This document shows positions 3,375 to 58,958 of a stretch of 64,000 bases of DNA, piece after piece (within the stretch, counting starts at the first letter, position 1; every line of letters starts with the position of its first letter). The notes under the pieces were generated by a model. The model did not search any database and was not told the DNA's origin. It saw nothing but the letters and a program-made list of their open reading frames with translations. Both the position numbers and the translations under genes were made by a program. The stretch comes from Candidatus Anstonellales archaeon (GTDB lineage Archaea > Micrarchaeota > Micrarchaeia > Anstonellales > CG1-02-47-40), in the NCBI GenBank assembly GCA_038869735.1, contig JAWCQO010000004.1, positions 20,803 through 84,802 of the forward strand, written 5' to 3'.

Positions 3375-3442
3375 AACTAACTCTTTGTAAAGCAAGAGTA
3401 TAAAAATAAATTTCTCTTTTTTTGTTTTTCAAAGGCAACATT

Positions 3443-3460
3443 AAAGAAACATTTTTAAAT
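3443..3460 (+). promoter_or_regulatory. Archaeal BRE/TATA promoter of the ftsZ pair
   Basis: The purine-rich AAAGAAAC is followed directly by ATTTTTAAAT, a good BRE-TATA pair. The predicted transcription start is near 3482, just before the ATG at 3494. This supports the internal ATG rather than an upstream TTG as the ftsZ1 start. Confidence 0.6.
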
Positions 3461-3493
3461 CTTTTAGTAGCATATGATGTTGGCGATCCAGTT

Positions 3494-4558
3494 ATGGATA
3501 GTTTGATAAAATCGGTAATTGGTGAGCGAGAGCCCGCTCAAAACGAAGTATTCGGCTCTGACCAAATTAAAATTGTGACTGTAGGAGTTGGCGGTGCAGG
3601 AAATAACACGATAAACCGCCTTATACGTGCAGGCGTAAAAGGAACAGAACTCGTTGCTGTAAATACAGATCGACAGCACCTCAATCAAATACACGAAAAA
3701 GCACACAAAGTCCTTATTGGAAAAAGCATTACTAAGGGTTTGGGTGCAGGCGGATATCCAGAAACAGGTGCAAAAGCCGCAGAAGTTGATAGGGCACTTT
3801 TGGAGAAGGAACTTGAAGGTGCGCACTTAGTTTTCCTCTGCGCAGGAATGGGTGGCGGGACAGGAACAGGAGCAGCTCCGGTGATAGCTCAGATTGCAAA
3901 GGAACAGGGCGCAATCACCGTTGCAATGGTTACCTACCCATTTAACCTTGAAAGAGCACGAAAGCTTAAAGCTGACGAAGGAATTGCAAATCTAAGAAAA
4001 AACGTAGACTCTGTAATCATTCTTGACAATAATAGATTGGTAAAGCTAGTTCCCAATCTTCCAATGAACGAAGCTTTCTCAGTTGCAGATGAAATTCTTG
4101 CGAAAGCAATTGGAGGACTCGTATGGACAATTACGCAGCCTTCATTAATAAACATAGATTTTGCAGATGTGCGTGCAATTGTTCAGGGAGGAGGAGTTGG
4201 ATTTATTGCAGTTGGAGAAGGCAAAGGGACCGATAAGGTCAGAGGGGCTGCTGAGGGTGTGCTTCGCAATAAGCTGTTGGATGTAGATTACGAAGGCGCA
4301 AACGGAGCACTCATCCACATATCTGGAGGAGCAGACCTTACGCTTGGTGATGCGATAAAGGCAGGAGAGATAATAACAGAAAAGATGGACACGCAAGCCA
4401 ACATAAAATGGGGAGCACGTTTGATACCTGGCTATGACGGAAAGTTAGAAATAGTAGCTATAGTAACAGGAGTCAAGGGCGCCTCGGTGCTGGGCATGTC
4501 CTTTGAAGATGTCTCAGCAAAAAAGGTTACTTACGACGATATAGAAATAATCGGGTGA
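3494..4558 (+). CDS. ftsZ1: Cell division GTPase FtsZ (first of two)
   Basis: Tubulin-superfamily GTPase that forms the archaeal division ring. The N-terminus [11 protein letters not shown] resembles other archaeal FtsZ starts. The nucleotide-binding glycines (VGVGGAGNN), the tubulin signature GGGTGTG at about residues 120-126, and the T7 loop NIDFADV with its Asp residues are all present, so it should be able to hydrolyse GTP. It is 354 residues long and ends in [10 protein letters not shown], without a long variable tail. It is followed at 10 bp by a second ftsZ, an arrangement fitting the archaeal FtsZ1/FtsZ2 pair. Which paralogue is which cannot be settled without a tree; the symbol is given by position. 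Confidence 0.93.
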
Positions 4559-4568
4559 GGTGACTATA

Positions 4569-5630
4569 ATGCTTGAAGGATTTTTGCATTCTGCCCTTGA
4601 ACACAACAACCCTCCAAACGAAGATGCAGTAGGAGACAATGACATAAGGATAGCAGTTGTAGGAGTCGGTGGTGGCGGTTGCAATACCATTCATCGCCTT
4701 ATGCAATCAAACCTTAAAAGTGCAACCACAATTGCAGTTAACACAGATCATCTCCATCTACGAAGTATATCGGCTCACAAGAGAATCTTAATAGGCCAAT
4801 CGATAACAAAGGGTCTTGGTGCTGGGGGTTTTCCAGAGGTAGGACAAAAGTGTGCAGAGATATCAAAAGACAAGCTTTCTGAAGTGCTATCCGAAAATGA
4901 CCTTGTTTTCCTCTGCGCAGGAATGGGTGGCGGGACAGGAACAGGAGCAGCTCCTGTAGTAGCACAAGTTGCAAAGGAACAGGGCGCAATAGTAGTTGCT
5001 ATTGTTACATACCCCTTCAATCTGGAGCGTATAAGAATACAAAAAGCCCAATGGGGACTTTCCCATTTGACGAAGGTATGCGATACCGTTGTGGTAATTG
5101 ACAATAACCGGCTAGTCCAATATGCACCAAATATTCCGATAAATGATGCATTTAATTTAGCAGATAACATTACTGGAAGAGCAGTTAAGGGAATCTGTGA
5201 CACAATAATGTTTCCGTCTCTCATGAATATTGACTATGCAGACGTAAAATCAGTAATGGAGGAAGGCGGAGTTTCACTTATCTCTGTTGGCGAAGGAAAG
5301 GGACCGGATAGAGTTGAGAAAGTTGTAAAGAGTACTCTTGAACACCCTCTTCTTGATGTTGACTACGAAGGAGCAAGGGGAGCTCTTTTACATATCGGAG
5401 GCGGTTCCAGCCTAACACTCGGAGAAGCAATAGAGATTGGCGAAAAGCTAACTGAAGCATTTGACAAAAATGCAAATGTCAAAATGGGAGCAAGACTGAC
5501 TCCAGAATACGGGGAGGATGTTTCCGTGACGGCTATAGTCACAGGCCTAAAACAGACTCCTTCAATATTCAGTCAGCAAACAACAGACGCCGACGAGGTA
5601 AAGGGATTAGAAGAGCTATCTCTCCTATAG
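4569..5630 (+). CDS. ftsZ2: Cell division GTPase FtsZ (second of two)
   Basis: Second FtsZ paralogue, 353 residues. It has VGVGGGGCNT, GGGTGTG and the T7 loop NIDYADV, so the active-site elements are complete. The chosen ATG at 4569 has a Shine-Dalgarno GAGGTGA six bases upstream, overlapping the ftsZ1 stop region; the in-frame GTG at 4560 lies inside that ribosome site and is less likely. Co-transcription with ftsZ1 is expected from the spacing. A 50-nt segment around the signature motif is identical between the two genes (see findings). The C-terminus extends beyond the globular core (SIFSQQTTDADEV...), as expected for a tail that binds membrane-anchor partners such as SepF, although no sepF is present here. 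Confidence 0.93.
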   Translation: MLEGFLHSALEHNNPPNEDAVGDNDIRIAVVGVGGGGCNTIHRLMQSNLKSATTIAVNTDHLHLRSISAHKRILIGQSITKGLGAGGFPEVGQKCAEISKDKLSEVLSENDLVFLCAGMGGGTGTGAAPVVAQVAKEQGAIVVAIVTYPFNLERIRIQKAQWGLSHLTKVCDTVVVIDNNRLVQYAPNIPINDAFNLADNITGRAVKGICDTIMFPSLMNIDYADVKSVMEEGGVSLISVGEGKGPDRVEKVVKSTLEHPLLDVDYEGARGALLHIGGGSSLTLGEAIEIGEKLTEAFDKNANVKMGARLTPEYGEDVSVTAIVTGLKQTPSIFSQQTTDADEVKGLEELSLL

Positions 5631-5986: not shown

Positions 5987-6631
5987 ATGAAATCAGCAGT
6001 TCTTTTTTCTGGCGGTAAGGATTCAACTATGGCAGCTTTTTTCTCATTGTTTCAAGGATGGAATACAACTCTAATTTGCGTCCAATCAGAAGAGGATTCT
6101 TATATGTTTCATCATCCAAATACCGACTTTTGTAAATTACAAGCGCACTCAATGGGCTTGCCTATACACTATATACGAACAAACAAGGCGCGCGAGTTGG
6201 CTGACCTTAAAGCTCATCTTGAAAAGATCAAAACAGATTGCATAGTATCTGGAGCTGTGGCTTCAGAATATCAAAAACAACGCATAGACGTTATAGCTGA
6301 AGAACTAAACATCCCTTCTTTTTCTCCGTTATGGCACAAGGGAACCCAAATTCTGGAGGAAATTGCCCAATATCTTGAAATCTACATCGTTCACGTAGCT
6401 GCCGATGGTTTAGGAAGTGAGCTGCTTGGAAAAAGGCTGACCCTTACCGAAATATATAATCTTTCAAAACTAAACATCCATCCTTTTTTTGAAGGTGGAG
6501 AAGGAGAAACTTTTGTTTCAGATGCTCCGTTTTTTAGAGAACGATTGGAAGTACTAGCGTGGGATTACCTTTGTGGTTCAACTCATTTCACCGCTAAGAT
6601 ATCAAAGATACGTGTTCATAAAAAATTCTAA
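5987..6631 (+). CDS. Diphthine--ammonia ligase family protein (Dph6-like)
   Basis: PP-loop ATP pyrophosphatase family (MJ0570-related), 214 residues. The PP-loop LFSGGKDST is at the N-terminus, and the C-terminal signature is FEGGEGETFVSDAPFF, the form seen in Dph6. In archaea this family performs the last, ATP-dependent amidation of diphthine to diphthamide on elongation factor 2. The first ATG must be the start because the PP-loop begins at residue 7; the gene appears leaderless. It ends 3 bp into the convergent gene at 6628. Assignment to Dph6 rather than a sister PP-loop group rests on the GEGGE motif. Confidence 0.82.
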   Translation: MKSAVLFSGGKDSTMAAFFSLFQGWNTTLICVQSEEDSYMFHHPNTDFCKLQAHSMGLPIHYIRTNKARELADLKAHLEKIKTDCIVSGAVASEYQKQRIDVIAEELNIPSFSPLWHKGTQILEEIAQYLEIYIVHVAADGLGSELLGKRLTLTEIYNLSKLNIHPFFEGGEGETFVSDAPFFRERLEVLAWDYLCGSTHFTAKISKIRVHKKF

Positions 6632-7323
6632 CTCACCCTTTCCAATCGATCTATAATATCATCCAACTCGCTTCCATACATTTCCTTTATTTTGACAGTG
6701 GCTTGGACGTTAATGTTCACAGGTATCTCTTTTTTTATCTTTATCCCATATCTGCTTCCGTTTTGGGTGTCTACGAATATTTCCTGCCTAATTGGGAGAG
6801 TCTGTCCAAACTTAAACTCAGTAACCTGTCCTGTTGTGGAAATCGCAGTAACCTTCTCAGGCAGCTTCAGATTAAATAAAACAGGAATCCTAAAATTTGG
6901 GGGGAATACTTCATCCAATGGTATCTCTTCTTCGATTTGCACAGTCGTTCTAATGGGGGATGAAGATAAAATCACGTCCTTTGCCTGAAGCGCTTTTAAA
7001 TCAGCAATTATCGCAGGAAGCTCAGACCTAATTTTTCCACTTCCTCCAATATCAACGATGTTTAGTACAAGAGATATCAAGGCAAGTACAAAGGCTGCCC
7101 CAGCCAGGATTTCAGCTTTTTTCAAATTATCTTTGCTCTCTATTCTTTTTTCGCCATACTCCCTTTTGATAGGAGCAGAAAAATCGCTCTTACTGCCAGA
7201 TAATGATTGGGGGATTTTTGCTACTCCTAACTTTTTATCAGTTGAGCTGTCTTTTCTTTTAGATTGTCCATACAATATGCCGGCAGGTTGATCCGAATAT
7301 TCCTCCTCTGCCACAAACACCAC
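6628..7323 (-). CDS. Single-pass membrane protein ending the six-paralogue operon
   Basis: 231 residues, family not recognised. A charged, Ser/Lys-rich cytoplasmic N-terminus (about 70 residues) precedes one membrane helix (ILAGAAFVLALISLVLNIV). A short helical segment (ELPAIIADLKALQ) and an outward beta-rich domain follow (FRIPVLFNLKLPEKV, QEIFVDTQ). It starts with GTG preceded by GAGGTG and lies 13 bp after the sixth membrane paralogue, so it is probably the last gene of that operon. The single anchor and outward domain would suit an accessory or assembly subunit of whatever the paralogues build. That role is inferred from position only. Confidence 0.72.
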   Translation of the reverse strand: MVFVAEEEYSDQPAGILYGQSKRKDSSTDKKLGVAKIPQSLSGSKSDFSAPIKREYGEKRIESKDNLKKAEILAGAAFVLALISLVLNIVDIGGSGKIRSELPAIIADLKALQAKDVILSSSPIRTTVQIEEEIPLDEVFPPNFRIPVLFNLKLPEKVTAISTTGQVTEFKFGQTLPIRQEIFVDTQNGSRYGIKIKKEIPVNINVQATVKIKEMYGSELDDIIDRLERVS

Positions 7324-7336
7324 CTCAAAATCAAAA

Positions 7337-8335
7337 TCATATTAATTTTATAAGCCCTCTTCCAAGCTCAGCAAGATCTGCTGAAAATAAGGCAGACGTG
7401 CTTCTAATAAAGGTAAACGTAATTATCAATGCCACTACTGGAAAAAATGTTGATTGAAGATACAAAATAGAAACGTTTTCGCCTATATGAAAGATAAGAC
7501 TGGTCCAGCTTGGAAGATTCTGTCCAACGTCCCTTGCTATTAAATTGTAACCAGCGATATCATCGGGGCAAATTCTTCTATCATATATTTCAACGTTACC
7601 AATACTGGTACAGAACTCATCAGCGCTACCTTGAATCGCTACGAGAATAACATAAGACATAGGGAAAACAAAGAAGCACCCTATAGCGAGGGCAATAAGA
7701 AAACCTCCCAATCCACGCGAGATTGGAAAGACTCTAAGTATAAGGCCTGCTGGAAGAAACAAGTTTAGCATTGAGACCTCAAAGAATACAAGTAGATTGT
7801 ATATAATATATTGAAACATAATAATCCACAAAAGCTTCTTTGTAACGTAATCACCGAGGCTTACAACAGACGAAATGACTGTTGAGGATAGATTCCATCC
7901 TTCTGCTCCAGAAGAATCCACAGAAAATGTTTCAAATGGTTTCACAAACAACATTATAGAATAAATACTCGAATATGCTAAAGTTTCACATTCAATAACG
8001 TTTCTAATATATCCTTTTGCTAAATCAAATGGCCCAGTAACGGGTCCGGGATTAACGTTTCCTCCGGTTACAGAATAAATCACAATACCAGATATTTCGT
8101 ATGAAATATTCCACAAAAATGATATTACCCCTATTATGCAAAAAACAATAAGAAACCCTACCAATACCTGAGAATACTCACTCTTTGCCCATTTCTTAAC
8201 GTTTTGTAGGTTTAATCCTATTGAAATCATATAGATAACTGTAGTTATAAAAAATGTCACTAGCAAAGCAAGAATATTGATAACATACCAATCCTGGAAG
8301 AAAACCCGGTGAAATATCTCTATTGGATTTAGCAC
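7337..8335 (-). CDS. Polytopic membrane protein, paralogue 6 of a tandem array
   Basis: 332 residues with about six or seven membrane helices. It shares the array's signatures: an amphipathic segment after the first helix (VKKWAKSEYSQV), a central block LPAGLILRVFPISR then GGFLIALAIG and FFVFPMSYV, and a C-terminal helix ending GRGLIKLI. The start is a GTG directly abutting the stop of paralogue 5, so translation is probably coupled. The outward loop after the central block carries two Cys (EFCTSIG, RRICPDD). No enzyme motif is visible. Resemblance to VirB6/TrbL/CedA-type channel proteins is only in general layout. Confidence 0.75.
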   Translation of the reverse strand: MLNPIEIFHRVFFQDWYVINILALLVTFFITTVIYMISIGLNLQNVKKWAKSEYSQVLVGFLIVFCIIGVISFLWNISYEISGIVIYSVTGGNVNPGPVTGPFDLAKGYIRNVIECETLAYSSIYSIMLFVKPFETFSVDSSGAEGWNLSSTVISSVVSLGDYVTKKLLWIIMFQYIIYNLLVFFEVSMLNLFLPAGLILRVFPISRGLGGFLIALAIGCFFVFPMSYVILVAIQGSADEFCTSIGNVEIYDRRICPDDIAGYNLIARDVGQNLPSWTSLIFHIGENVSILYLQSTFFPVVALIITFTFIRSTSALFSADLAELGRGLIKLI

Positions 8336-9412
8336 TTATATCATCCTCAATATAGTTGATAAATCCATTTCCTCTCCAAGAAGCATCGTAAAGTCCCGGA
8401 TAAAAGGAATAAAAACAGCAAAATTTATTGCTGGAAGAAATACACTTGCAATAAATATATAAAAAGCAAGGGACACTATATAAAATAGCTTTATTGATAT
8501 ACTTCCGCTATAGCGGTTTATATTTATGCCTTGATAACCATCTCTACTCAAGTTTTCTGCTTCCCCATAATTCCCTTGCGCAATTCTCCCTCCCTCTACT
8601 TCTTCCCATATCCCCCTGTATTCCTGACTGGTTTGAGGCTCATCTAATCTTTCAAATATCCCTGTCTGACTTCCGCGGATTATAAAGTCATTTATCACCA
8701 ACATTGCAGGATAAATAAGAAAGACTCCAAATGAAAAAGCAATAAGTGAGCCCCCAAAAAGTCTAGTTGGCTCAAATGCGCGGAGCAAGACCCCGATTGG
8801 AAACAGATACGTAAGCGTAGCTATAGAGAGATACTCCAAAATCTTTATTTGCATAATGACAAATAATAGAGAGGTAGCTATTCCTTGAGCTACAATCGAG
8901 AATATTTGAATTAATATGTTTAGACCAGCCGCCGGTCTTAGAGAAAAGCCCATCCCCAAAGGGATGGCATTATGATGAACCCCCGCCATAGTTTGAAAAA
9001 CCCAATACACAGCACCAACATATACTAAGGCTTGCAGATTCTTTTTTCTTATGTATCCCAAGTAATCATATGTGAGGTCATAGAAATTCATATTTTGAAA
9101 TCGAGCGTCATTGTATCTTTCTCCAAAGATTAACCCCATCTTAGACGGCTTTAATTCGCACATCAGACCGACTGTTCCAACAGCAACAACAGCAATTGCA
9201 GCTGTCACTAAAAGTTGAACGAGCTCTGCCCTACTCCAAACCTCAAGTTGCTGATTTCTAAAGAATTTTGATGCCATAAATATTAGCGAGAGAATCCCGC
9301 TAGATATTAAGACTGCAAGTGCAACGTTGACTCTCCAATCCTGCCAGAAAAAAGAATAAGTTGAAGCTATCTGCCCGCCTGTCATGCATACATTAAATAC
9401 AAAATCCGCCAT
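8336..9412 (-). CDS. Polytopic membrane protein, paralogue 5 of a tandem array
   Basis: 358 residues, about seven membrane helices. Array signatures are LEVWSRAELVQL, FPIGVLLRAFEPTR, GGSLIAFSFG with LIYPAML, and the C-terminal EEMDLSTILRMI. Between the central block and the last helices there is an outward hydrophilic loop of about 60 residues (ERLDEPQTSQEYRG...), much longer than in paralogue 6. It abuts its neighbours by 0-3 bp. The function is unknown; membership of one complex with the other paralogues is inferred from co-directional, gapless packing. Confidence 0.75.
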   Translation of the reverse strand: MADFVFNVCMTGGQIASTYSFFWQDWRVNVALAVLISSGILSLIFMASKFFRNQQLEVWSRAELVQLLVTAAIAVVAVGTVGLMCELKPSKMGLIFGERYNDARFQNMNFYDLTYDYLGYIRKKNLQALVYVGAVYWVFQTMAGVHHNAIPLGMGFSLRPAAGLNILIQIFSIVAQGIATSLLFVIMQIKILEYLSIATLTYLFPIGVLLRAFEPTRLFGGSLIAFSFGVFLIYPAMLVINDFIIRGSQTGIFERLDEPQTSQEYRGIWEEVEGGRIAQGNYGEAENLSRDGYQGININRYSGSISIKLFYIVSLAFYIFIASVFLPAINFAVFIPFIRDFTMLLGEEMDLSTILRMI

Positions 9413-9415
9413 CGC

Positions 9416-10564
9416 TTATAACACCCTCAATATATCTCCTATATTAACGTCTGTTCCAAAGTGTCGCGCAAACTCCCTTATAGCAGTAAATGTTACGTAT
9501 ATAATCAGCACCGGAATCATAACTCCAACTATAAAAATAAAGTAGGCCGCATTCTTGATAATTTCAATCAAAGCATTTAGAAGAACAAAAAATATCCCCA
9601 CCCCTACAAATCCAACGTTCCCAAAAATAATGCTTCCAATCAAAGCTATAATAGCTCCAGAAGAAAGTGTTAAAATAAGACGTTCGAAAAAATCACCCCC
9701 TAAATGGGTTCTAAAATAACTTACTCTGCCATCAGGCGTATCTATACTGCTTCTTTCATAATACCTTTCAACTGCGCTTGCAGAGACGTTTATCATAGCT
9801 GGATAGACTACATAAAATCCCAGTGCGATAGCAATAAGAGCTCCACCCAATGCCCTTGTAAAAGAAAAAGTCCGAAAAAATATACCAATAGGAAGTAAAA
9901 ATGACATAAGATACTTCTTTGAAAAGCAAAGAACAAATAGATTCACAAACCATATCCCCCACGTCGTTGTCATCATTCCCACAACCATGTTGAGCATATC
10001 AACAATCGGTTTTAGAACATAAGACATACTAAATGAAAAGCCACCCAGCAATCCAATAGCGCTTCCAATTACTATTTGAGTACTAGATAACACTGTTACT
10101 AGAAAATTTACTATAGTGGCCACCATCAAATCAGCACTCAACGTTATCAAAATTGCATTTGACAACTCAAGTGCCCTATCAATGTTATTTGTCTCATCCC
10201 CGACTCCGAAGCTCTTAGTGAGTATATCTACCCCTACGTTTGTTATAATCAAAAAGACGATAATTACACCAGAAAAGATAATTTGTTCAAGAGTATTTTT
10301 TGCCCATAAAATACTGGTTTGGTTATCCAGAAGATGCCCCCCCATGTAAACAAGGGCGCAGATAGAGAGAGAAATAGCAAGGGAGATTAATGTGATGACA
10401 GGCCATTCAACATTCGTAAACGCAATACAACTTTCTCTGCTTATCCCTACTTCTCTCAAATACCGCCTTGTCTGGTTCATCTGGTCCTCCCAAATGCCGG
10501 TAGAAGATCCTAAGCCTATAAGATATATGAGAAATAAAACTGTGATAATAGCCCTTATCTTCAT
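9416..10564 (-). CDS. Polytopic membrane protein, paralogue 4 of a tandem array
   Basis: 382 residues. It opens with a signal-peptide-like helix (IITVLFLIYLIGLG) followed by a short outward stretch with one Cys (RESCIAF), then about seven further helices. Array signatures are ILWAKNTLEQI, LPIGIFFRTFSFTR, GGALIAIALG with VVYPAMINV, and the C-terminus GTDVNIGDILRVL. An extra hydrophobic pair (GAIIALIGSIIFGNVGF...) precedes the last helix, so the topology may differ from paralogues 2, 5 and 6. Confidence 0.75.
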   Translation of the reverse strand: MKIRAIITVLFLIYLIGLGSSTGIWEDQMNQTRRYLREVGISRESCIAFTNVEWPVITLISLAISLSICALVYMGGHLLDNQTSILWAKNTLEQIIFSGVIIVFLIITNVGVDILTKSFGVGDETNNIDRALELSNAILITLSADLMVATIVNFLVTVLSSTQIVIGSAIGLLGGFSFSMSYVLKPIVDMLNMVVGMMTTTWGIWFVNLFVLCFSKKYLMSFLLPIGIFFRTFSFTRALGGALIAIALGFYVVYPAMINVSASAVERYYERSSIDTPDGRVSYFRTHLGGDFFERLILTLSSGAIIALIGSIIFGNVGFVGVGIFFVLLNALIEIIKNAAYFIFIVGVMIPVLIIYVTFTAIREFARHFGTDVNIGDILRVL

Positions 10565-10565
10565 C

Positions 10566-11726
10566 TCATATCAACCTTGTAAGACCGGCAATCTCTACGT
10601 CTCCTCCAAGAAGAGGCGACAATATTTTTATACTGGCTATTGTAGACATAATTGCGACAAAAGGCATGAATAGGGAAAAAATCATCATCCTAGCTACTGA
10701 TTCAAAGACGCCCCCTTCACCAATTATCCATGCACTACCTCTATATGTCCTTAAAAAAGCGTGAGGGACGTCTACAAGAGACCTAAAAATTTCCAAAATG
10801 TGTTGAATCAATGACCTAAGAATTCGAAGATATCCTTCCATTGTTGGTTGAGACTGTTCTCCAACCAAATTTATTCGAGTAGGTTCTATCTCAAAAAGTG
10901 ATTCGGGAGTAGGCATACTTTCGCGCGTAATATTACCACCCCCTCCTATCTCAAAAGGATTGATTAATCCTAATCGGTCGATGTTTAAGGGATTAAGCGT
11001 TCTTCCACTATATCCAATGAGTATATATCCTGATAGCGCATACATAAATGGATAAACAAAATAAAAACCAACGGCAATAGCAATCATGAGCCCCCCAAGT
11101 CTTCTTGTTAGAAAAAAGTTACGAAGGAAAAATCCAAATATAAGAAAAATAGGGAAAATAGTCTGCCATATAATATCCAGTAAATACTCCTGAAATCGTA
11201 AAGCAATCATCATTTTATATAAAATATCTATTGCTATTAGAAGAGCATCCGAAACCATTGACAATGCGGCAAATGGCTTAATTGAGAGATCTGACATAGG
11301 TATAATTGTCAGCCTTAAACCTACTCCTATATCTGAGAGAAACATAAACGTTGAATTTATCCAAATAATCTGCCCTGCCATCTGCTTTGAGGAATTGAAA
11401 ATTATCCCCAAATAATTTTTAGCTAACGAGACTTGACACGGCTCGGTGTTCGTACAAACAACCGAAGATAAGGGATCAGCTGCCAATATAAGCCTGGCGT
11501 ATCTATCTGCTCCACTATTAAACGCTTCAGCTGCAAATGTAATTAGTATCAAAATTATGACCGATAAAAACATATGAGCTATTTCACTTCTCGCATAAGC
11601 TTCCAACGACTCAATAGAAAGCATTTTGCTTATCGCATAAGCAATAGCAACAAGTGATATGGTTGAGACAATCGCAATACCAAGCAAAAACCAATATCTT
11701 CCAATCAGAATTTCGGCAATGAGCAT
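10566..11726 (-). CDS. Polytopic membrane protein, paralogue 3 of a tandem array
   Basis: 386 residues, about seven membrane helices. Array signatures are LEAYARSEIAHMF, a hydrophobic core ending FGFFLRNFFLTRR, then GGLMIAIAVG with FVYPFMYAL, and the C-terminal GGDVEIAGLTRLI. Two Cys in the first outward loop (SSVVCTNTEPCQV) could form a disulphide. A long outward loop follows the central block (ILIGYSGRTLNPLN... about 100 residues). Spacing to paralogue 2 is 3 bp and to paralogue 4 is 1 bp. Confidence 0.75.
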   Translation of the reverse strand: MLIAEILIGRYWFLLGIAIVSTISLVAIAYAISKMLSIESLEAYARSEIAHMFLSVIILILITFAAEAFNSGADRYARLILAADPLSSVVCTNTEPCQVSLAKNYLGIIFNSSKQMAGQIIWINSTFMFLSDIGVGLRLTIIPMSDLSIKPFAALSMVSDALLIAIDILYKMMIALRFQEYLLDIIWQTIFPIFLIFGFFLRNFFLTRRLGGLMIAIAVGFYFVYPFMYALSGYILIGYSGRTLNPLNIDRLGLINPFEIGGGGNITRESMPTPESLFEIEPTRINLVGEQSQPTMEGYLRILRSLIQHILEIFRSLVDVPHAFLRTYRGSAWIIGEGGVFESVARMMIFSLFMPFVAIMSTIASIKILSPLLGGDVEIAGLTRLI

Positions 11727-11729
11727 TTA

Positions 11730-12689
11730 CTACCCCATTTTTTGGCTTAGAAATTTATTCATGCTCTTTATAAATGTCATCGTAATCAGCATTGATAGAC
11801 CGGGAAGAAATATCCCCTGCATCAATATTACTGATAACTTTACAAATAGTTTCATTACTAACTCATAATTCCATAAAACCCTCTCGGTTATTCTTTGATG
11901 GTATTCCCCGTCTTGGTTTTCTTGAATGCTTTGTCTATAATCACTAATCCAATCATACGGAGCAATTGTCTCTTGTCTGGGGTCTTGACCTGCTGGTGGA
12001 GGAAGAAAATCAATCACACCATCTCTTGCATCGATGTACCTCATTATGTTGTAATGCATGACATATGTAAGAGGAAATACGAAATAAAACCCAAAAGAAG
12101 CGGCAATGAGGAGTACCCCGGCATCCCTAGTGGGAGGGAAAATCCTAAGAATTATACCTGCAGGCAAGACCAAAGTTAGGGTCGTTGCCTTTATTAACTG
12201 GAGACCAATACTTTGTGCTACCAGTGAAGAAGCAAAGGGTGAGATGACGAACACAACCCATTCAAAGATAGATGCTAAAAGCGATAAAAAACTCAACGGT
12301 TGGAACCTTATGCTCCAGCCACCCCCAGCTCCAAAGTGGAGCGCTGCCCCACCCATCCATTCAAAAAGAATCACTAACCCCTCCATTTGAACAAGTGTCG
12401 GAATCGTAAGCTGAGAGATCATTATGTCAAGATATTTCAAGGCGATTTCAAAGTAATCCACCCCAAATATACTCATACTTACTCCGATTGCCATATTAGC
12501 AAGAAAATACGTCATAAGAAGCAAAACCACTGAAAAGAAAACCTGGTATGTCTCGAGAGTAGCAAAAGCTTCCAACTCAGATTTTCTAAATATCTGAGCT
12601 AACATATAAATAAGCGAAATCGAAGTGACCATAACTAATATACTTATTGCAATCATCTCAAACTGGCTTCCTCCAATCTCCAAAGCCAT
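11730..12689 (-). CDS. Polytopic membrane protein, paralogue 2 of a tandem array
   Basis: 319 residues, the shortest of the six. Signatures are LEAFATLETYQVFF, LPAGIILRIFPPTR and LLIAASFGFYFVFPLTYVM. Its C-terminus (MNKFLSQKMG) lacks the 'L.RLI' ending of the others. It starts at an ATG with a strong Shine-Dalgarno GGTGGTGA. The outward loop is Pro- and acid-rich (DFLPPPAGQDPRQE). Confidence 0.75.
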   Translation of the reverse strand: MALEIGGSQFEMIAISILVMVTSISLIYMLAQIFRKSELEAFATLETYQVFFSVVLLLMTYFLANMAIGVSMSIFGVDYFEIALKYLDIMISQLTIPTLVQMEGLVILFEWMGGAALHFGAGGGWSIRFQPLSFLSLLASIFEWVVFVISPFASSLVAQSIGLQLIKATTLTLVLPAGIILRIFPPTRDAGVLLIAASFGFYFVFPLTYVMHYNIMRYIDARDGVIDFLPPPAGQDPRQETIAPYDWISDYRQSIQENQDGEYHQRITERVLWNYELVMKLFVKLSVILMQGIFLPGLSMLITMTFIKSMNKFLSQKMG

Positions 12690-12703
12690 TAGTCAATCAC
12701 CAC

Positions 12704-13969
12704 CTATACTAGCTTTGAAAGCCCAAATATCTCAACTTCTCCCCCAATTGAAGCCGCAATACTTCTGTAAGCTGTTACAGTTAAAATTATCTCTATAACT
12801 ACCCCAACAAATACAAAAGATAGGCTCCACCCAATCTCATTCATCGTTTCTACCGTTGCATAGTAAAAAATAACAGAACTCCTCCACAGGGACGCAAGGG
12901 AAGAGACGTATCTTAAAGTAAATCTTATATAATTCATTGATATATCGATGAGCTGTTCTGTTACTTCAACAACCGCGCTTAACAGTCGCCAAGCTCCACA
13001 AATTATTCTCCTAAAAAATCCCCAATTTTGAGGCTGCCCACTGCACCATCCGCCACTTTCATTACTTCTCTCATCCTCGTGATTTTGATAAATGCGTCTG
13101 CTTGCTTCTCTCCCTTCCTCAACAACCGTATTCATAAAATTCCCTGCTTGCGGGTTTGGTTCAATGGTAAGGGGGAATTCGTACTCTCTTATCTGAGGCA
13201 TTTGGGTGTTAATATATAGTTCTTCGACTACTATCACGGAGAGTGGGAAAACAAAATAAGCTGTAAAGGCAAAAGCTATAATACTAGAACCTATCCTCCT
13301 TGTTATAAAAAAAGCTCTTAAAAAAAGCCCAAGGGGAAGGAAGACGCTTAACATACTATCCTTAAAAAACAATAATAGCACTTTTTGAAGAGAAATAAGA
13401 CCAATTGCACCTCCAACAAGGTCCGTGATCAAAATATTACCTTCTGCAACCGGTACGACTCCCACACCAGGTCCAAACGAAATAGAAAATCTCATTATCG
13501 AATGAGGAGGAAAAAAAAAGGTTGAGTGTAATGTGGATACCATGCCCAGCACTATCTCGTTTAAATTCAGTGATATGTACTTACTAACTAGCATCCAGAA
13601 CATAGAATCAAGAAAGATTGAAGGCCGCATATAAATGTCCGCGCTACCACCAATAATCTGGCTTATCATTGAGAATAGGCCCAGGGTAAAAAAAGTGATT
13701 ATTACTATAACTCCAGTTATAAAAACTTCATAAAGCTCCATCTTTGCCCATGACTTAATATTTGGAACTGCTAAAAATTCAGACAACATATATGCTATTG
13801 CAGTGGCGCCTACCCCAATTAAAAGTGCGGCACCAATCGGAGCAGCAAATCCTTGGAATCTCCCAATAAAATCTTCAACATTTTCGTCAACGGTTTGTTG
13901 CGCATCTACGCTTTGGATCAACAACAAAGAAAACACAAAAAATAAAGACGCTAAGCTTCTAATCCTCAT
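12704..13969 (-). CDS. Polytopic membrane protein with signal peptide, paralogue 1 of a tandem array
   Basis: 421 residues, first gene of the operon. A cleavable signal peptide is likely (LASLFFVFSLLLIQSVDAQQ). The array signatures follow: IKSWAKMELYEVF, LPLGLFLRAFFITR, SIIAFAFTAYFVFPL, and the C-terminus GGEVEIFGLSKLV. The outward loop is the longest of the set (about 130 residues) with two Cys (GGWCSGQPQ, RRIICGAW). The ATG has the upstream Shine-Dalgarno AAGGGG. The operon promoter is the shared TATA region near 14005-14016. Confidence 0.77.
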   Translation of the reverse strand: MRIRSLASLFFVFSLLLIQSVDAQQTVDENVEDFIGRFQGFAAPIGAALLIGVGATAIAYMLSEFLAVPNIKSWAKMELYEVFITGVIVIITFFTLGLFSMISQIIGGSADIYMRPSIFLDSMFWMLVSKYISLNLNEIVLGMVSTLHSTFFFPPHSIMRFSISFGPGVGVVPVAEGNILITDLVGGAIGLISLQKVLLLFFKDSMLSVFLPLGLFLRAFFITRRIGSSIIAFAFTAYFVFPLSVIVVEELYINTQMPQIREYEFPLTIEPNPQAGNFMNTVVEEGREASRRIYQNHEDERSNESGGWCSGQPQNWGFFRRIICGAWRLLSAVVEVTEQLIDISMNYIRFTLRYVSSLASLWRSSVIFYYATVETMNEIGWSLSFVFVGVVIEIILTVTAYRSIAASIGGEVEIFGLSKLV

Positions 13970-14037: not shown

Positions 14038-16818
14038 ATGGATATTAATTATGCCCATTGGCAATCCATCTGGGAGAAAAAAGGAGTTTATCAACCAACG
14101 GCTTATGATGGAAAAAAATTTTTCCTTACTGCAGCTTTTCCCTATCCAAACTCTCCTCAACACATAGGACACGCAAGAACATACACCACAGCAGATATAT
14201 ATGCAAGATACATGCGAATGAAGGGAAAAAATGTTCTTTTTCCAATGGGCTTCCATGTGACTGGCACGCCAATAATTTCGATGGCTAGTCGATTAGCCGA
14301 AGGAGACCCCGAAATACTAAGTATTTTTGAAGAAGTTTATCACATACCAAAAGAAAAAGCACTCCTTCTCAATGACCCAAAAAAGTTAGTTATGTACTTC
14401 TCAAAGGAAATAGAAATTGGAATGAGAATGATGGGTTTTTCGATTGACTGGAGGCGGAAATTTTATACGGATGAGCCCCATTTTAACAGATTTATTCAAT
14501 GGCAGTTTCGCAAGTTAAGTGAATTAGGATACATAAAAAAAGGCATCCACCCTGTTCCATGGTGCCCAAAATGCGAAAATCCGCTTTCTGCTCATGATAC
14601 CCATGGGGACATTGACCCTCATCTAGAAGAAGTTCTTGTAATCAAGTTTAAAAGCTCAGAAGGTTATTTCCCCACTGCAACATATCGACCTGAAACAATT
14701 TATGGTGTTACGAATCTTTGGGTCAAGCCAACAGCCACTTATGTTTTGTGCAAGATGGGTGAAGAGCATCTTTTTCTATCAAAAAAAGCGTACGAGAGCC
14801 TTTCCAATCAGTTGGATATTGAAAAAAAAGAAGAGTTACCCGGTTCTAAACTAGTAGGTAAAAAATGTACAAATCCCCTAAATGGTAAAGACGTTGAGGT
14901 TCTACCTGCTGCTTTTGTAGATGAAGAAGTTGGCACGGGTCTTGTTATGAGTGTGCCAGCCCACGCTCCTTATGACTATGTTGCCTTACGCGACCTCAAC
15001 TCTAACCTAACCCCTATACCTGTCTTGGAAGTAGAAGGTTTTAGCTCCATACCTGCAAAAGATATAGTAGAAAAACTCAAAATAGAAAATCAGCTGAGCG
15101 CCCAGTTGAAAGAAGCAACTGACATACTATACAAGAAGGAGGCACATCTTGGAAAGATGATTATTGGTGATTATAATGGTATGAGGGCAATAGAGGCAAA
15201 AGAAAAAATCTCCCTTGTTTTGCTTTCAAAAGGAGCAGCTTTTTTGATACATGTGATTTCAAATTCCCCAATTTTTTGTAGATGTGGCACAAAATCAACA
15301 GTAAAAATAGTGAAAGACCAGTGGTTCATAGATTATGGAAATAAAGAATGGAAAGAAAGAACATTGAGACATCTAATGAAAATGAAAATAATCCCACAAA
15401 GCACAGTTCCTGATTATACGTATACTATAAACTGGCTAAAGGAAAAAGCCTGTACTAGATCACGAGGTCTTGGGACAAATTTTCCATTTGACGAATCTCA
15501 AATAATTGAAGCCTTATCTGATTCTACCATATACATGGCATTTTATACCATCTCACATCTCCTCCCCTCATACCCTCTTGACAAGATAAACGACTCCCTT
15601 TTTGATTATATTTTCCTTGGAAAAGTAACCGGCAATTTTAAGCCTGATTCGAAGGCAGAGGAAATGAGAAGAGAATTTCTTTATTGGTATCCACTTGATT
15701 CTCGCCACTCAGCCGTTGACCTAGTCCACAATCATCTTACATTTTTCATCTTTAATCACGTTGCTATTTTTGATGATGCACTTCTACCACAACAAATAGT
15801 TGCAAATGGTTTTGTAACAATGAATGGTAAAAAAATGAGCAAAAGCATGGGAAATATTCTCCCTCTTCAAGAGGCCATAAAGAAATGGGGCCCTGACGTA
15901 ATTCGCTTTTCAGTGATAGCTGGCGCAGACATCGCTTCGGATACTGACTTTTCTGACTCACTTGCAAATGGCGTTTCAAGCAGATTAAGATATGCAGTTG
16001 AACTTGCGGAAAAATACCTCTCAAAAAATAACCAAAATCTCCCTGATGAACAAACAGAGCACGACCTACCCCACAAGTGGCTTTTATCTCGCCTTCATAG
16101 AAGAATAAAAAAGGCGCCATATCTTTATGAGAATTTTGCCTTGCGAGAGCTTGCACATGAATTGCTCTACGATTCCCTCAACGATGTCACCTGGTACCTA
16201 AAAAGAACAAAAAAGCCATCTCTTAAAGAATTTTTTGAATACTGGACACTTTTGATCTCTCCAATAATGCCGCACATCGCAGAGGAACTATCCTTTCGTT
16301 TTCTTGGAAGGGAAAAAAGCGTAGTTACTATGCCATTTCCACATCCGGACGATTCAAAAATTAGTGATTCATTAGAGCTTGGAGAGGAGCTTCTAATAAA
16401 TCTCATCGCCGATATAAAACAAATTATCAAAATAATAGGAAGGGGGGAGACCGCCCCCCCTAAAAAAATCTTTGTCTATGTAGCATCTAATTGGAAAAGA
16501 AAACTTCAGAAAATAGCGTATACAAATAAGCGCTTAGACCTAACTATGCGCGAGGCAACAGAAATTGAGGAATTAAAAGGAAGGCTTCAGGACGTTTCTT
16601 ATCTTGCAAAAAAGTTTTGTTCAAATCTAAATTCTCTAACAGATAAAATGCTATCCGCAGAAGAGGAGCTTTCATATTTTAAATCATGTCTTGATTTTCT
16701 CTCAACTGAATTTTCGTGTACGATCGAAATCTTACTCGATAAAGATGCGCCTTCTAAACATCAACAAAAGGCCTCATCGGCACTTCCTAACAGACCATCA
16801 ATTTACATTGAATTGTAA
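14038..16818 (+). CDS. leuS: Leucyl-tRNA synthetase (archaeal type)
   Basis: Class I aminoacyl-tRNA synthetase that charges tRNA-Leu. At 926 residues it has the archaeal/eukaryotic length. The HIGH motif is PQHIGHAR near residue 40. The connective-peptide editing domain follows, with [10 protein letters not shown] and a later [16 protein letters not shown]. The KMSKS motif is [10 protein letters not shown] near residue 600, followed by the anticodon-binding helical domain ([12 protein letters not shown]). A CPKC motif occurs before the editing domain; only one CxxC is obvious there, and a second pair may be CRCG near residue 420. The C-terminal ~120 residues are charged and less conserved. 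The first ATG suits a leaderless transcript. Confidence 0.95.
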
Positions 16819-16918: not shown

Positions 16919-19900
16919 ATGAGATACAGAAGTATACTCATTTCAACACTTACTCTATTACTTTTTTTATCTTCATTACCACTATCAGAAAAAAACATAA
17001 CAAGACTCCAGGTTTATGTTGATGGACTTACTGTTCATGCTCAACTTACGAAAGTGGATATGGGCTCATCATTTCGGGTTTATCCTGAAGAATTGGAGAG
17101 ACAGGTTAGGTCGTTTTTAAGTGAAAATAGACAAGAACAAAGACAGAACGAACAGATCCCGTTTTTAGTTCAACGCACAGAACCACTTGCTGGACAAAGT
17201 CTTGATTTCTTTCTATATAACCGAGAAACCAGTGAGTATCAACCAGTTTTCGGATGTAGCGGTCTTCTTACAGATGAGCGCGGAATAGCGAATTGCACTG
17301 TAAGCGAGATTTCCGGTTCAAAAACGTGTTCTGTTATAAACGTGTCTTATTCGGGAACAACAGCCTATGAGCCGTCTACTACTACTGGAATAGTTTGTGA
17401 TGAATCAAACAACGGCCTCTCTGCATTTGGTCTTGCTACTGAAAACTACCTTAGGAATAGGCAGACCTACATATGCCTACCCATCTTCCTAATTCTAGGG
17501 CTCCTCCTTGCTTCTCTCTACTATTCAGGAAAGAACCCCTTAAATATTTTTGATATAACCACTCCGCGGCTTCCAAGACCAAAAAAACACCGCATCACTC
17601 CAATCATTATCCGCTCACACCTAATTAGCAATATGTTGATGAATATGAGTCTCCTTCGCAGAGCTCAACTGGATATCATCAACGCAGCCGATGCGATTGT
17701 CCGGATTCTTCCTTCTGATAATACTCTTCATAGCGACCTTCTACAAGCTTATAGTGAAATACGATCTGCCAGACGTATCCCCCCCCATATTCGTTGTGCC
17801 GCCATCGCAGCGCTCTTTTCTTCTGGACCTCGAGCAGCAGAGACGATTCTAAGAAATGCATATCAAAGAGGTGCAGTTAGAAGCATACAATCTCTAAAAA
17901 AGAACGAAACAGATACATATCTTTCGAGTATACTCTCAAGATCCGGATTAGATAAGGAAACCCAACAAACATTAATGCGCTTTCACAAATTTATTCAAGA
18001 TCGTAGTAGTGCTGCGATAGTAACTTATGAGAAACACGAAAAGCTGAAAGAAACGTATGGATATAGCGGTTCCATCGCCAAGTTACTCCTATCCCTTTCT
18101 TATAATAGTTACCGGTTAGACCGCACCTTGCCTCGAACAGTAGATAAAACTGTTCTAGCCACCGTAGGAAGAGTTCCGATTGTTGGCCCTCCATTAGCAT
18201 CAGTTATTCGCAGCGCCGCTAAAGTTGCATTATTGCCTATAAGGACTCCCCTAAATTTTGCTATCCTTCCTCTTGAAGTTGTAGGACAGACTAAGATGGC
18301 TGTCAAATCAGCTAAAAGCATTCTAAACATTTTTTCAGGTTCTTTGGATAACAAACGAGTGGGTAATTTTCATGATGCGCTTTCTCAAATCAAAAACATT
18401 TGCAGACATATAACACCAGAGACAGTCAGAGAAGAGGTTATCTCCTACGCAATCAGAAAAATAAACGAAGCTTATTTTGGGAGTTCGATTGATGAAGAGA
18501 CTAGAAACCGCCTTCTAAATATAGTGGGTGCACGGTTAGCGAGTCCCCTACGAAATGGCGACTACGATGAAGCGTATAGGAGAGCATTATTAATTATGGC
18601 TAGATATAATCTAGTTGATCAGCAAACTATTGACTCAATCAAGGCTGTTGTACGCGATATAGATAGAAGGTATTATTCGTATATAGGAAATAGAGATAAT
18701 AGTCTAGATGCGGGCATACACTACTTGAGTGATGTGCATGCTCTTATACGTAAATTTCAAACTTCCCACCCACAAGAGCAAGTATTCTTCCTAACAACAA
18801 GATTTTATGACCCTCAAAATCCGACCACAGAACGAGCAACTGCTGCATTCCATTACTTCCTTAGTCTTCAGGCCATTCAACGTTTACGCTCTGGTATAGA
18901 CACTAGAACTACATTTGCAGACATCTACACTGAATTACATAGAAGAGAGAGTCAGGAACTTGAAAGAGAAGCTAACTCTGTTGCACAAATAGTCGCAATT
19001 CGGTACACTCTTTCTCCTAACGCTCCACAAAGACGACAAACTCGAAACCCACATGATGAATTCCTTCATTTTCTTTTAAACCGAATTGAAATAAAAATCA
19101 ACAGAATGCGTCCTGCAGAAGTTTATCGCGACTTTTCCCAAGTTCTCATGGAGAATGCTACAATTTTGAGGTTTTATCAAGACCACATTTTACCGTTACT
19201 AGCAAAGACTAGTTCCGGAGCAAACCTTTCAGAACAAGAGCTGTATCAAGAGTTGATGAAGCATGGGGTTGATTGGAGAACAGCTACAAGGCTTATTTAT
19301 ACTCCACCAAGCAACCTAACACAAAATAGCACGCCTGAGTCCGAAAGAATTGGGAGCGGAATTGTTCGAGGATGGATAGTAACTGGAGACGGCACCTTCA
19401 AACCACTTTTTATAGAGGGCATGTATCACACCTTTGTAACAACAATTTTTGGTTCGTCCTCTCCCCTATTGGATGAAGGCCTGACCAGGACAAACAGCCA
19501 AGGCCAACGTATATCTGTAATGGGAGCTTCAGATGCAGATAAAATAGTCTCCGTTTACAGCAGGGATAACAATGATTTGTTAGCAACACATGCTGGAGGA
19601 CCCATAAGAAGACTGTTCTATCAAATTCAGCAGCCGTTTCTAGCCGGTGCAAAAGTTATCTTCGCAGCAAAAGAAGAGTTTGAAACAGTCTTTGCTCTCC
19701 AAGCCCTCGAAAGGAAAGCGTATAAGGATATAGAGCGAAATTACAACCTCGGAACGTATTTTTCTCAAGTGCCAACGCTCCGGCAGATCGAAGAACAGAT
19801 AGCTAGCGAAAGTGACAAAACTATGCGCCGAAAGCTAGAAAGAAAACGTCAAGACATGATACTGGAAATCTTAAATAACCGAGATATTAGCAGGACATTT

Positions 19901-21157
19901 AAAGATGCCTATGAGGCCTCACTACTATACGACTTAGTATTTCTAAAAAACGAGGTAGCAAACTTTATGAGAGACCCGCGAGGAGGAAGTTCTTCCTATG
20001 GTATAAGACAAGCAATCCACACCGGATATCATACAGGTCAATCCTTTTTTGAACCTGCAAGTTATTTTCTAACACGCGGATACGTTATAGGTGAAGACTA
20101 CTTGCGTTCCCTCCTATGGTTGCCTGAAAGACTAGGCCGACTTATAACGTACTTCTCCCGAGCCCCAATGGCACTGCAATCCGGCTATCCTTCTGTTTAT
20201 GAAGGAACCCATGAACCTGTTCGCCCCATGCGAGGGCGGGCACTTATGGATTTTTTTTCACCTTGGAAAAATCTTGATCGTCTATCGAACATACGTCTCC
20301 CAGAAATACATCCGACAAGAGGCTTGACACCTGTCGGTTGGTCTTATTTCGACGAATACAAAAGAACTCAAGCTCTTCGTTGGCTTGTGCCCGGAAGAAC
20401 ACTCCAGCAACGTCTTAACATACATGAATCTTATTGGGATAACTTTCAAAACCTGTACGGTACTCAAGAGATGCATAACATCAACGAGATATTCAATAAT
20501 ATTGTTGGAGACACAACCATTGACTTATTTAGAAATGTACGTCAACAATCAAGGTGGTGGCATTGGTTCTTCCAAAGGGGGGAGAATGTCACCTTACAGC
20601 TCACCGGTTATCTGCTTGCCACCGGTCCTGAATCAGCCCTGAGGACACCCGAACTCTATATCAATATTTATACTACTAATATATACAAAGCTTACCCTGT
20701 CGGGATGATGTATGTAGATGACGACCCATCAAAATTTACGACACAGCATCATCTAAATGCGAGACTTGCAAATAGAATAATTCGTGATTATAATTACCTT
20801 GTAGACCTCTATCCAGATATCAAAGAAGATGCACTCAGAAACATATGGAGACGGGATAAAATGTCAGCTGAGGAACTTGAATCAACCCGCAAACACGAAT
20901 ACAGTAATTATGAGTTTAGGATATTTTCTCCGTTTTTCCTTGCAAAATGGCTTGCTCCAAAAACCTATAATCAAGCTCTCGATAGTGCGGTTCTGAGAAG
21001 TATTGATGCAAGAACAGCGTATTACGAAAATATTAATCTCTATACTTCACTATTATTCCCTCCCTTGCTCTTATCTATGGGAGCTGAAAACTTAGGATAT
21101 TGGATACGTAATGTAGCAAGAAGAATACGAGCAAGAAGAACACACGCAGGACCTTGA
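16919..21157 (+). CDS. Giant membrane-anchored protein of unknown function, 1412 residues
   Basis: No family recognised. The N-terminal hydrophobic signal (residues about 5-22) leads to an outward domain of about 160 residues with four Cys (C113, C126, C137, C160), resembling an Ig-like or transthyretin-like fold (QSLDFFLYNRETSEYQPV...). One membrane helix follows at about 183-202 (YICLPIFLILGLLLASLYY). A basic stretch (PRLPRPKKHR) then suggests that the next ~1150 residues face the cytoplasm. That region is mostly helical and rich in Arg, Gln and Tyr, with no Walker or protease motif that I can see. A last hydrophobic segment (LYTSLLFPPLLLSMG) and an Arg-rich tail (RRIRARRTHAGP) end the protein. 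It lies between leuS and a lipoprotein gene, and is probably part of a cell-envelope structure. Confidence 0.8.
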   Translation: MRYRSILISTLTLLLFLSSLPLSEKNITRLQVYVDGLTVHAQLTKVDMGSSFRVYPEELERQVRSFLSENRQEQRQNEQIPFLVQRTEPLAGQSLDFFLYNRETSEYQPVFGCSGLLTDERGIANCTVSEISGSKTCSVINVSYSGTTAYEPSTTTGIVCDESNNGLSAFGLATENYLRNRQTYICLPIFLILGLLLASLYYSGKNPLNIFDITTPRLPRPKKHRITPIIIRSHLISNMLMNMSLLRRAQLDIINAADAIVRILPSDNTLHSDLLQAYSEIRSARRIPPHIRCAAIAALFSSGPRAAETILRNAYQRGAVRSIQSLKKNETDTYLSSILSRSGLDKETQQTLMRFHKFIQDRSSAAIVTYEKHEKLKETYGYSGSIAKLLLSLSYNSYRLDRTLPRTVDKTVLATVGRVPIVGPPLASVIRSAAKVALLPIRTPLNFAILPLEVVGQTKMAVKSAKSILNIFSGSLDNKRVGNFHDALSQIKNICRHITPETVREEVISYAIRKINEAYFGSSIDEETRNRLLNIVGARLASPLRNGDYDEAYRRALLIMARYNLVDQQTIDSIKAVVRDIDRRYYSYIGNRDNSLDAGIHYLSDVHALIRKFQTSHPQEQVFFLTTRFYDPQNPTTERATAAFHYFLSLQAIQRLRSGIDTRTTFADIYTELHRRESQELEREANSVAQIVAIRYTLSPNAPQRRQTRNPHDEFLHFLLNRIEIKINRMRPAEVYRDFSQVLMENATILRFYQDHILPLLAKTSSGANLSEQELYQELMKHGVDWRTATRLIYTPPSNLTQNSTPESERIGSGIVRGWIVTGDGTFKPLFIEGMYHTFVTTIFGSSSPLLDEGLTRTNSQGQRISVMGASDADKIVSVYSRDNNDLLATHAGGPIRRLFYQIQQPFLAGAKVIFAAKEEFETVFALQALERKAYKDIERNYNLGTYFSQVPTLRQIEEQIASESDKTMRRKLERKRQDMILEILNNRDISRTFKDAYEASLLYDLVFLKNEVANFMRDPRGGSSSYGIRQAIHTGYHTGQSFFEPASYFLTRGYVIGEDYLRSLLWLPERLGRLITYFSRAPMALQSGYPSVYEGTHEPVRPMRGRALMDFFSPWKNLDRLSNIRLPEIHPTRGLTPVGWSYFDEYKRTQALRWLVPGRTLQQRLNIHESYWDNFQNLYGTQEMHNINEIFNNIVGDTTIDLFRNVRQQSRWWHWFFQRGENVTLQLTGYLLATGPESALRTPELYINIYTTNIYKAYPVGMMYVDDDPSKFTTQHHLNARLANRIIRDYNYLVDLYPDIKEDALRNIWRRDKMSAEELESTRKHEYSNYEFRIFSPFFLAKWLAPKTYNQALDSAVLRSIDARTAYYENINLYTSLLFPPLLLSMGAENLGYWIRNVARRIRARRTHAGP

Positions 21158-27031: not shown

Positions 27032-27034
27032 CTA

Positions 27035-49300: not shown

Positions 49301-49301
<1 letters not shown>
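46848..49301 (-). CDS. gyrA: DNA gyrase subunit A
   Basis: 817 residues. The catalytic Tyr is in AAMRYTEAR (about Y125). The N-terminal [16 protein letters not shown] and [11 protein letters not shown] are standard, and the C-terminal beta-pinwheel contains the GyrA box QKRGGKG, which marks gyrase rather than topoisomerase IV. The site of E. coli Ser83 is Val and Asp87 is Glu. The GTG start overlaps the gyrB stop by one base (TAGTG); an ATG five codons later (49286) is an alternative. Negative supercoiling by gyrase in archaea reflects gene transfer from bacteria. Confidence 0.96.
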
Positions 49302-51232
<1,931 letters not shown>

Positions 51233-58910: not shown

Positions 58911-58932
58911 AATCAAGTCTATACAAAAGCTC

Positions 58933-58938
58933 TTTAAA
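58933..58938. promoter_or_regulatory. Shared palindromic TATA box, subtilase and pdxT
   Basis: TTTAAA within CTCTTTAAATCAC is centred 23-24 bp from the pdxT ATG and 25-26 bp from the subtilase ATG. Only 48 bp separate the two start codons, so both mRNAs would begin at or next to their ATG. Confidence 0.6.
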
Positions 58939-58958
58939 TCACTTTCTCTGAATATACT

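Follow-up and report, generated by a model that had tools for sequence, protein, structure and literature searches.

The array and its proteins

The stretch of DNA analysed here, referred to as the window, comprises 64,000 nucleotides from a Candidatus Anstonellales archaeon (Micrarchaeota; assembly GCA_038869735.1, contig JAWCQO010000004.1, positions 20,803 to 84,802) and carries on its reverse strand an array of six consecutive genes, p1 to p6, for related polytopic membrane proteins. We call these proteins VirB6-like, a label given by fold and gene context only, without a sequence match. Each gene is an open reading frame (ORF) whose product falls in the tree clade of its position: p1 (12704..13969), also recognized by the family profile, encodes 421 amino acids (aa) with an N-terminal signal-like segment; p2 (11730..12689) encodes 319 aa; p3 (10566..11726), 386 aa with a position-specific SPLLGGDVEIAGLTRLI tail; p4 (9416..10564), 382 aa, again with an N-terminal signal-like segment; p5 (8336..9412), 358 aa; and p6 (7337..8335), 332 aa with an GADLAEIGRGLIKLI-type tail. 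AlphaFold models further describe p2 and p6. From p1 to p6 the consecutive ORFs are spaced by 14, 3, 1, 3 and 0 bp.

Across the array alignment, identity to p6 is 21-27%, and the residues L, G, R, F, R, G, I, A and P of a central signature are invariant in all six proteins. A W/A-K/R-x-E segment follows helix 1, and a D/E..L.R(L/I) tail is conserved at the C terminus of five of the six, p2 being the one that lacks it; a simple hydropathy count predicts 5-8 helices per protein. Profiles of the p6 and p2 orthologue alignments match each other over 288 columns (probability 100, E 3e-39), and the six are therefore true paralogues, their likeness lying far above chance. No Pfam or NCBIfam model matches any of them. 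A preliminary description of the locus, made from its letters and ORFs, had proposed six related polytopic genes with gaps of 0-14 bp, shared signature motifs and a mostly present C-terminal tail, a picture that ORFs, alignment and profile-profile comparison bear out.

The WAK.E and P.G..LR.F..TR motifs lie in short loops that contain K/R, whereas the long variable loops are acidic. By the positive-inside rule, positively charged loops lie on the cytoplasmic side; the conserved motifs are therefore predicted to face the cytoplasm, with the variable loops outside. These outer loops differ greatly among the array proteins, and in p3 they include a conserved cysteine pair (C91, C97).

Six fixed positions

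In a tree of 77 family members, with support given by the Shimodaira-Hasegawa-like approximate likelihood ratio test (SH-aLRT), each position forms its own clade (p1 95, p2 99, p3 95, p4 100, p5 83-87, p6 99), and a seventh clade, supported at 98, consists of single copies. Position profiles were built from nine arrays (the window and eight further loci) together with two partial loci (L041 and L042), and applied to 51 loci fetched independently. Genomes not used for training contain 24 complete arrays; every one has exactly six genes, and 21 have the exact order p1-p2-p3-p4-p5-p6, for which the chance under random order is 1/720 per locus. The remaining three (L152, L155, L157) are diverged, score with weak margins and are incompletely ordered by the profiles; partial arrays at contig ends agree with the p1-p6 order. 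Even the distant families f12 and f13 have six genes each, with p3 third in every array and the other assignments weak. The C-terminal tails are likewise specific to position, as in SPLLGGDVEIAGLTRLI on p3 and GADLAEIGRGLIKLI on p6. The array thus consists of six ancient paralogues held at constant number and order; the variable copy number and loose order that the preliminary description had set down as speaking against its reading were not what these loci have.

The family is present in 259 of 295 genomes sampled across the phylum, mostly metagenome assemblies whose relatives are not statistically independent, and in 89 of the 96 good ones (searched with a profile of the six); six candidates were scored per genome, and member counts per genome are accordingly lower bounds. 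Among named genomes nearly all relatives belong to Candidatus Micrarchaeota, one being the complete genome of Ca. Fermentimicrarchaeum limneticum, in a scan by a single p3 peptide pattern that would miss arrays without the pattern, also outside Micrarchaeota.

The source genome itself (884 kb, 96.9% complete) encodes 13 members: the six of the window, six more in a second array and, on contig 2, a single copy. The second array (contig 5, 28526-38700; L038) encodes larger proteins of 346-834 aa with enlarged outer regions, and is followed by a gene for a 1431-aa Cys-rich secreted protein. Some of its members group in the p1, p3 and p6 clades, while the rest are long-branched and of unsure placement. 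At the equivalent second array of another genome (G113, L099), p4 and p5 contain CARDB adhesion repeats (E 2.5e-32 and 5.4e-41) in their enlarged outer parts, which suggests that these parts of second arrays touch another cell.

ATPase, pilins and a two-transmembrane protein

In several genomes the family occurs as a single copy in an operon with the order pilin, VirB6-like protein, a protein with two transmembrane segments (2-TM) and ATPase (L073 and L077, partly L075 and L076). Six-gene arrays show a corresponding arrangement: in families f12, f13 and f17, genes for two members of this 2-TM protein family and for an ATPase come directly after the array, with gaps of 0-10 bp from the final array gene through the ATPase at L139, L140 and L151. 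The Fermentimicrarchaeum loci (L151, L047, L082) have six VirB6-like genes, two 2-TM genes and the ATPase gene in one operon, and in f17 one to three small pilins lie upstream of the array and one ATPase gene follows all six.

The ATPase exceeds the Pfam cut-offs for DUF87/HerA, AAA_10 and P-loop_TraG, and its profile matches HerA and the VirB4-like 4ag5/4ag6 in the PDB. Of the 96 good genomes, 89 have both the array family and the ATPase, and the other seven (G036, G058, G061, G068, G069, G076, G156) have neither. Twelve of 14 pilins match T4SS_pilin (PF18895, best E 1.5e-7) and six match TrbC/VirB2 (PF04956, best E 3.2e-7), individual pilins often scoring below the curated cut-off; TrwL, the R388 pilin, is a weak PDB match (E 0.047). 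Two features by which a type IV secretion system (T4SS) is recognized, a VirB4-class ATPase encoded with channel genes and a VirB2/TrbC-type 2-TM pilin, are thus both found. The pilin profile is also similar to the N-terminal region of p3 (probability 89, 32 columns). In nearly all operons seen, the 2-TM protein is encoded directly upstream of the ATPase, the position of VirB3; searched against the PDB, it gave only chance coiled-coil matches and no sequence match to VirB3.

The preliminary description had noted that the window has no VirB4, HerA or CedB ATPase, which is correct for the window and not for the genome: other contigs encode two such ATPases, each with a 2-TM protein directly upstream, and seven pilin matches. 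The association with a VirB4-like ATPase and pilins that it had envisaged is therefore there, in the operons of relatives and elsewhere in the source genome. One ATPase belongs to a module on contig 1 (~127-133 kb, L102) that comprises a 2-TM protein, the VirB4/HerA-type ATPase, a small Zn-type 2-TM protein, a soluble protein of ~200-250 aa and a 2-TM protein of ~850 aa; modules of this type stay together across the phylum, with parallel loci in nine other genomes. Viral contigs contained no relatives of the ATPase profile, and the plasmids searched yielded nothing but distant proteins of the Bacillota DUF87/VirB4-like type plus a handful of others, at 23-29% identity.

At least five more genes resembling pilins occur on contigs 2, 5 and 11 of the source genome. 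Some of them lie at contig ends, which suggests that a repeated pilin cluster broke the assembly.

Fold comparison

AlphaFold models of good quality were built from orthologue alignments for p6 (predicted local distance difference test (pLDDT) 81.8, predicted template modelling score (pTM) 0.76) and p2 (pLDDT 85.5, pTM 0.76). Against solved structures, the p6 model has R388 VirB6 (8rtd_L) as its highest-probability Foldseek row (0.69), and two further VirB6 entries stand within the top 13, with E-values of 0.4-0.9; in VIA-align, R388 VirB6 (7o3v_G) gives the longest alignment among the best 50 rows, 221 of 261 residues at Z 7.2, while ranking 50th. The p2 model has three R388 VirB6 entries in VIA-align rows 1, 3 and 4 (Z 7.5, 6.7 and 6.6; 221-227 residues), the top row being 7o3v_F with 222 residues aligned at Z 7.5; R388 VirB6 is not among its best 50 Foldseek rows. 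Judged from these models, p2 and p6 both find their best full-length fold match in R388 VirB6, with modest Z values.

An ordinary transporter was also considered and set aside: besides the lack of Pfam or NCBIfam matches for the six, 35 p6 and 34 p3 orthologues gave only scattered single matches. The strong match to a known transporter family that the preliminary description had named as speaking against its reading was thus found neither for the array proteins nor for these orthologues.

A proposed position-specialised secretion channel

We hypothesize, and consider it likely, that each of the six genes encodes a VirB6-like channel subunit specialised for its position in a chromosomal type IV secretion-like machine. 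Each gene would supply one fixed place in a hetero-oligomeric pore, probably of six subunits, with one pore per machine seated on the VirB4-class ATPase; the cytoplasmic motifs would contact the 2-TM protein and the ATPase, and the diverged outer loops the pilus or a partner cell. Such a machine may assemble a VirB2-type pilus or conduit, and may move DNA or protein between the archaeon and a host or sister cell. VirB4-class ATPases are hexameric in known T4SSs. A narrower proposal, on which we are almost evenly divided and lean slightly to the negative, is that the VirB6 pore is an obligate hetero-hexamer of six order-encoded subunits, matched to the hexameric ATPase and with outer domains evolving position by position, and serves as the cell-cell transfer device of Micrarchaeota. 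The preliminary description had suggested a hetero-oligomeric channel recalling VirB6/TrbL and CedA; operon partners and fixed order agree with such a channel, and that the six proteins join in one ring is what we infer.

Several observations weigh against this hypothesis. The VirB6 of R388 is a homo-pentamer (PMC9259494), so six different subunits would break the symmetry of the bacterial pore. The array and the ATPase operon are not neighbours in the order to which the window belongs. Fold Z values of 7.2-7.5 lie within the chance range for helical bundles, among which they are common, and the Foldseek E-values exceed 0.1; the likeness to VirB6 is consequently supportive and not proof. By sequence, the p6 profile finds no PDB chain, and the profile relationship to TrbL/VirB6 that the preliminary description had in mind did not materialize: Pfam TrbL (PF04610) has no match in the source genome at E up to 10, which is why the family is not filed under PF04610.

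What such a machine would carry, and to whom, can be read in two ways. It may be a DNA-exchange or DNA-import machine acting between micrarchaeal cells, akin to the Ced and Ted systems, and not a host-interaction device. The HerA/VirB4 class of the ATPase fits this reading, as do the same three-part set in CedA/TedA, CedA1/TedC and CedB/TedB (PMC9905601) and the presence of family members in lineages argued to be free-living (PMC8561730). However, a fixed six-fold diversification of subunits and adhesion-type outer domains such as those of second arrays are not known from Ced/Ted, and no result points to DNA as the substrate; we regard the reading as credible while leaning somewhat away from it.

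Alternatively, the array may belong to a secretion or uptake channel through which an episymbiont interacts with its host, comparable to the T4SS of Saccharibacteria, which is essential for epibiotic growth (PMC10633639). Host-dependent Rickettsiales show a parallel expansion of VirB6 with large extensions (PMC2653234), and in a Micrarchaeota-host co-culture, cryo-tomography has revealed nanotubes that contact a 21-nm barrel located in the micrarchaeal envelope (PMC11329633). The authors of that study consider the tube host-derived, however, so that a link between array and nanotube is speculation; moreover, some carriers of the family may be free-living (PMC8561730), and no effector is known. 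This reading could well be right, though our expectation falls a little on the other side.

A further alternative concerns the pore itself. The VirB6-like proteins might form separate homo-oligomeric pores, or be variants kept in reserve for use with particular partners, pili or conditions of growth, in the manner of antigenic or host-range variants. One VirB6-like protein can evidently suffice, since single-copy homologues occur in complete VirB2-VirB6-VirB3-VirB4-type operons, and the high variability of the outer loops, like the CARDB repeats of second arrays, would suit such variants. Yet variants would be expected to gain and lose copies, whereas throughout the phylum the genes keep one number and order; a separate clade and tail motif mark each position, and the f17 operon provides a single ATPase gene after all six. 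We therefore think separate pores unlikely and prefer one pore of six specialised subunits. That the family is unrelated to VirB6, and is an unrecognized transporter or envelope complex sharing its operon with a HerA-like ATPase, would agree with the lack of a VirB6/TrbL sequence match and the modest fold scores, but is very improbable given that pilin, 2-TM, VirB6-like and ATPase genes recur together in single-copy and six-copy operons, that VirB6 is the best full-length fold match of two independently modelled paralogues, and that p3 has an N-terminal region similar to the pilin profile, as reported for CedA1 and CedA (PMC9905601).

Neighbours of the array

A co-directional ORF 13 bp downstream of p6 (6628..7323, reverse strand) encodes a 231-aa protein that is single-pass by topology count. 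The preliminary description had counted it as a subunit of the operon; the ORF and its direction stand, but a homologue search found a single relative with 44% identity, from another genome within its family, and the protein is therefore not a conserved subunit. It is probably an accessory, lineage-restricted protein; as a VirB8-like core subunit it was rejected for want of conservation. On the other side, the leucyl-tRNA synthetase (LeuRS) gene (14038-16818) lies between the array and an ORF on the forward strand (16919..21157) for a giant protein of 1412 aa without a Pfam match. In neighbourhood comparisons, most of the order's arrays have a diverged homologue of this protein beside them, in many cases with LeuRS in between, and the protein is a possible accessory of the array.

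The window also contains two tandem FtsZ genes (3422-5630; 378 and 356 aa, each with matches to tubulin/FtsZ and FtsZ_C), a protein export pair of the SecF/SecD type (25835-28627), adjacent genes for DNA gyrase subunits A and B (46848-51232), a bacterial-type topoisomerase in an archaeon, and a 1517-aa subtilase with bacterial Ig-like repeats (54417-58970) that is likely a cell-surface protease.

Comparison with known systems

Micrarchaeota, a DPANN lineage, are tiny and mostly host-dependent archaea. To the question of how DPANN exchange material with their hosts or with each other, the array adds a concrete and nearly phylum-wide gene set, in a group where intercellular tubes without identified components have already been seen by cryo-tomography. 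The results suggest that Micrarchaeota carry an apparatus for transferring DNA or protein, with a central pore of six different parts. The preliminary description had named the system a candidate for an undescribed one, and the literature searched contained no account of a six-gene array in Micrarchaeota.

The nearest archaeal systems by type are Ced of Sulfolobales and Ted of Thermoproteales, DNA-import systems built from CedA/TedA, CedA1/TedC and CedB/TedB, in which a resemblance between CedA1 and CedA has been reported (PMC9905601). Like the Micrarchaeota set they are archaeal and chromosomal, and combine a VirB6-like polytopic protein, a VirB2-like 2-TM pilin and a VirB4/HerA-class ATPase (PMC9905601, PMC11868833). 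Micrarchaeota thus have the equivalent gene types, a likeness drawn from type and published description. The differences lie in number and composition: Ced and Ted have one CedA, joined in Saccharolobus by the paralogue CedE, both being needed for DNA import (PMC11868833), whereas Micrarchaeota have six position-fixed paralogues, often two arrays with an additional single copy, and 2-TM proteins at the place of VirB3.

Bacterial and other DPANN systems share parts of this organization. The conjugative T4SS of R388, whose VirB6 (TrwI) is the best full-length fold match of p2 and p6, uses one gene product. Saccharibacteria (Patescibacteria) are, like many carriers of the array, ultra-small episymbionts with a pilin-bearing T4SS, theirs lacking a coupling protein and a recognized relaxase (PMC10633639, PMC12102498), but it has single VirB6-type genes and is of the bacterial MPF-FATA type. 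In nanohaloarchaea, also DPANN, giant SPEARE-type proteins with VirB4/TraG-like ATPase domains and giant adhesive extracellular regions have been linked to a T4SS (PMC10266531); there, however, the ATPase is fused to the adhesin, and no VirB6-like array is reported.

A parallel is seen in the rvh (Rickettsiales vir homolog) T4SS, where host-dependent cells have five arrayed and strongly diverged VirB6 genes, rvhB6a-e, with large and variable flanking regions (PMC2653234). Those five match PF04610/COG3704 and operate in diderm bacteria alongside VirB8-B10, whereas the Micrarchaeota set has six genes, no PF04610 match and a monoderm archaeal setting; the two arrays are most likely convergent. 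As with the five VirB6 genes of Rickettsia, the array would be a natural case of a symmetric secretion pore seemingly split into fixed positions, here six, which makes both the stoichiometry of the subunits and the role of each position testable.

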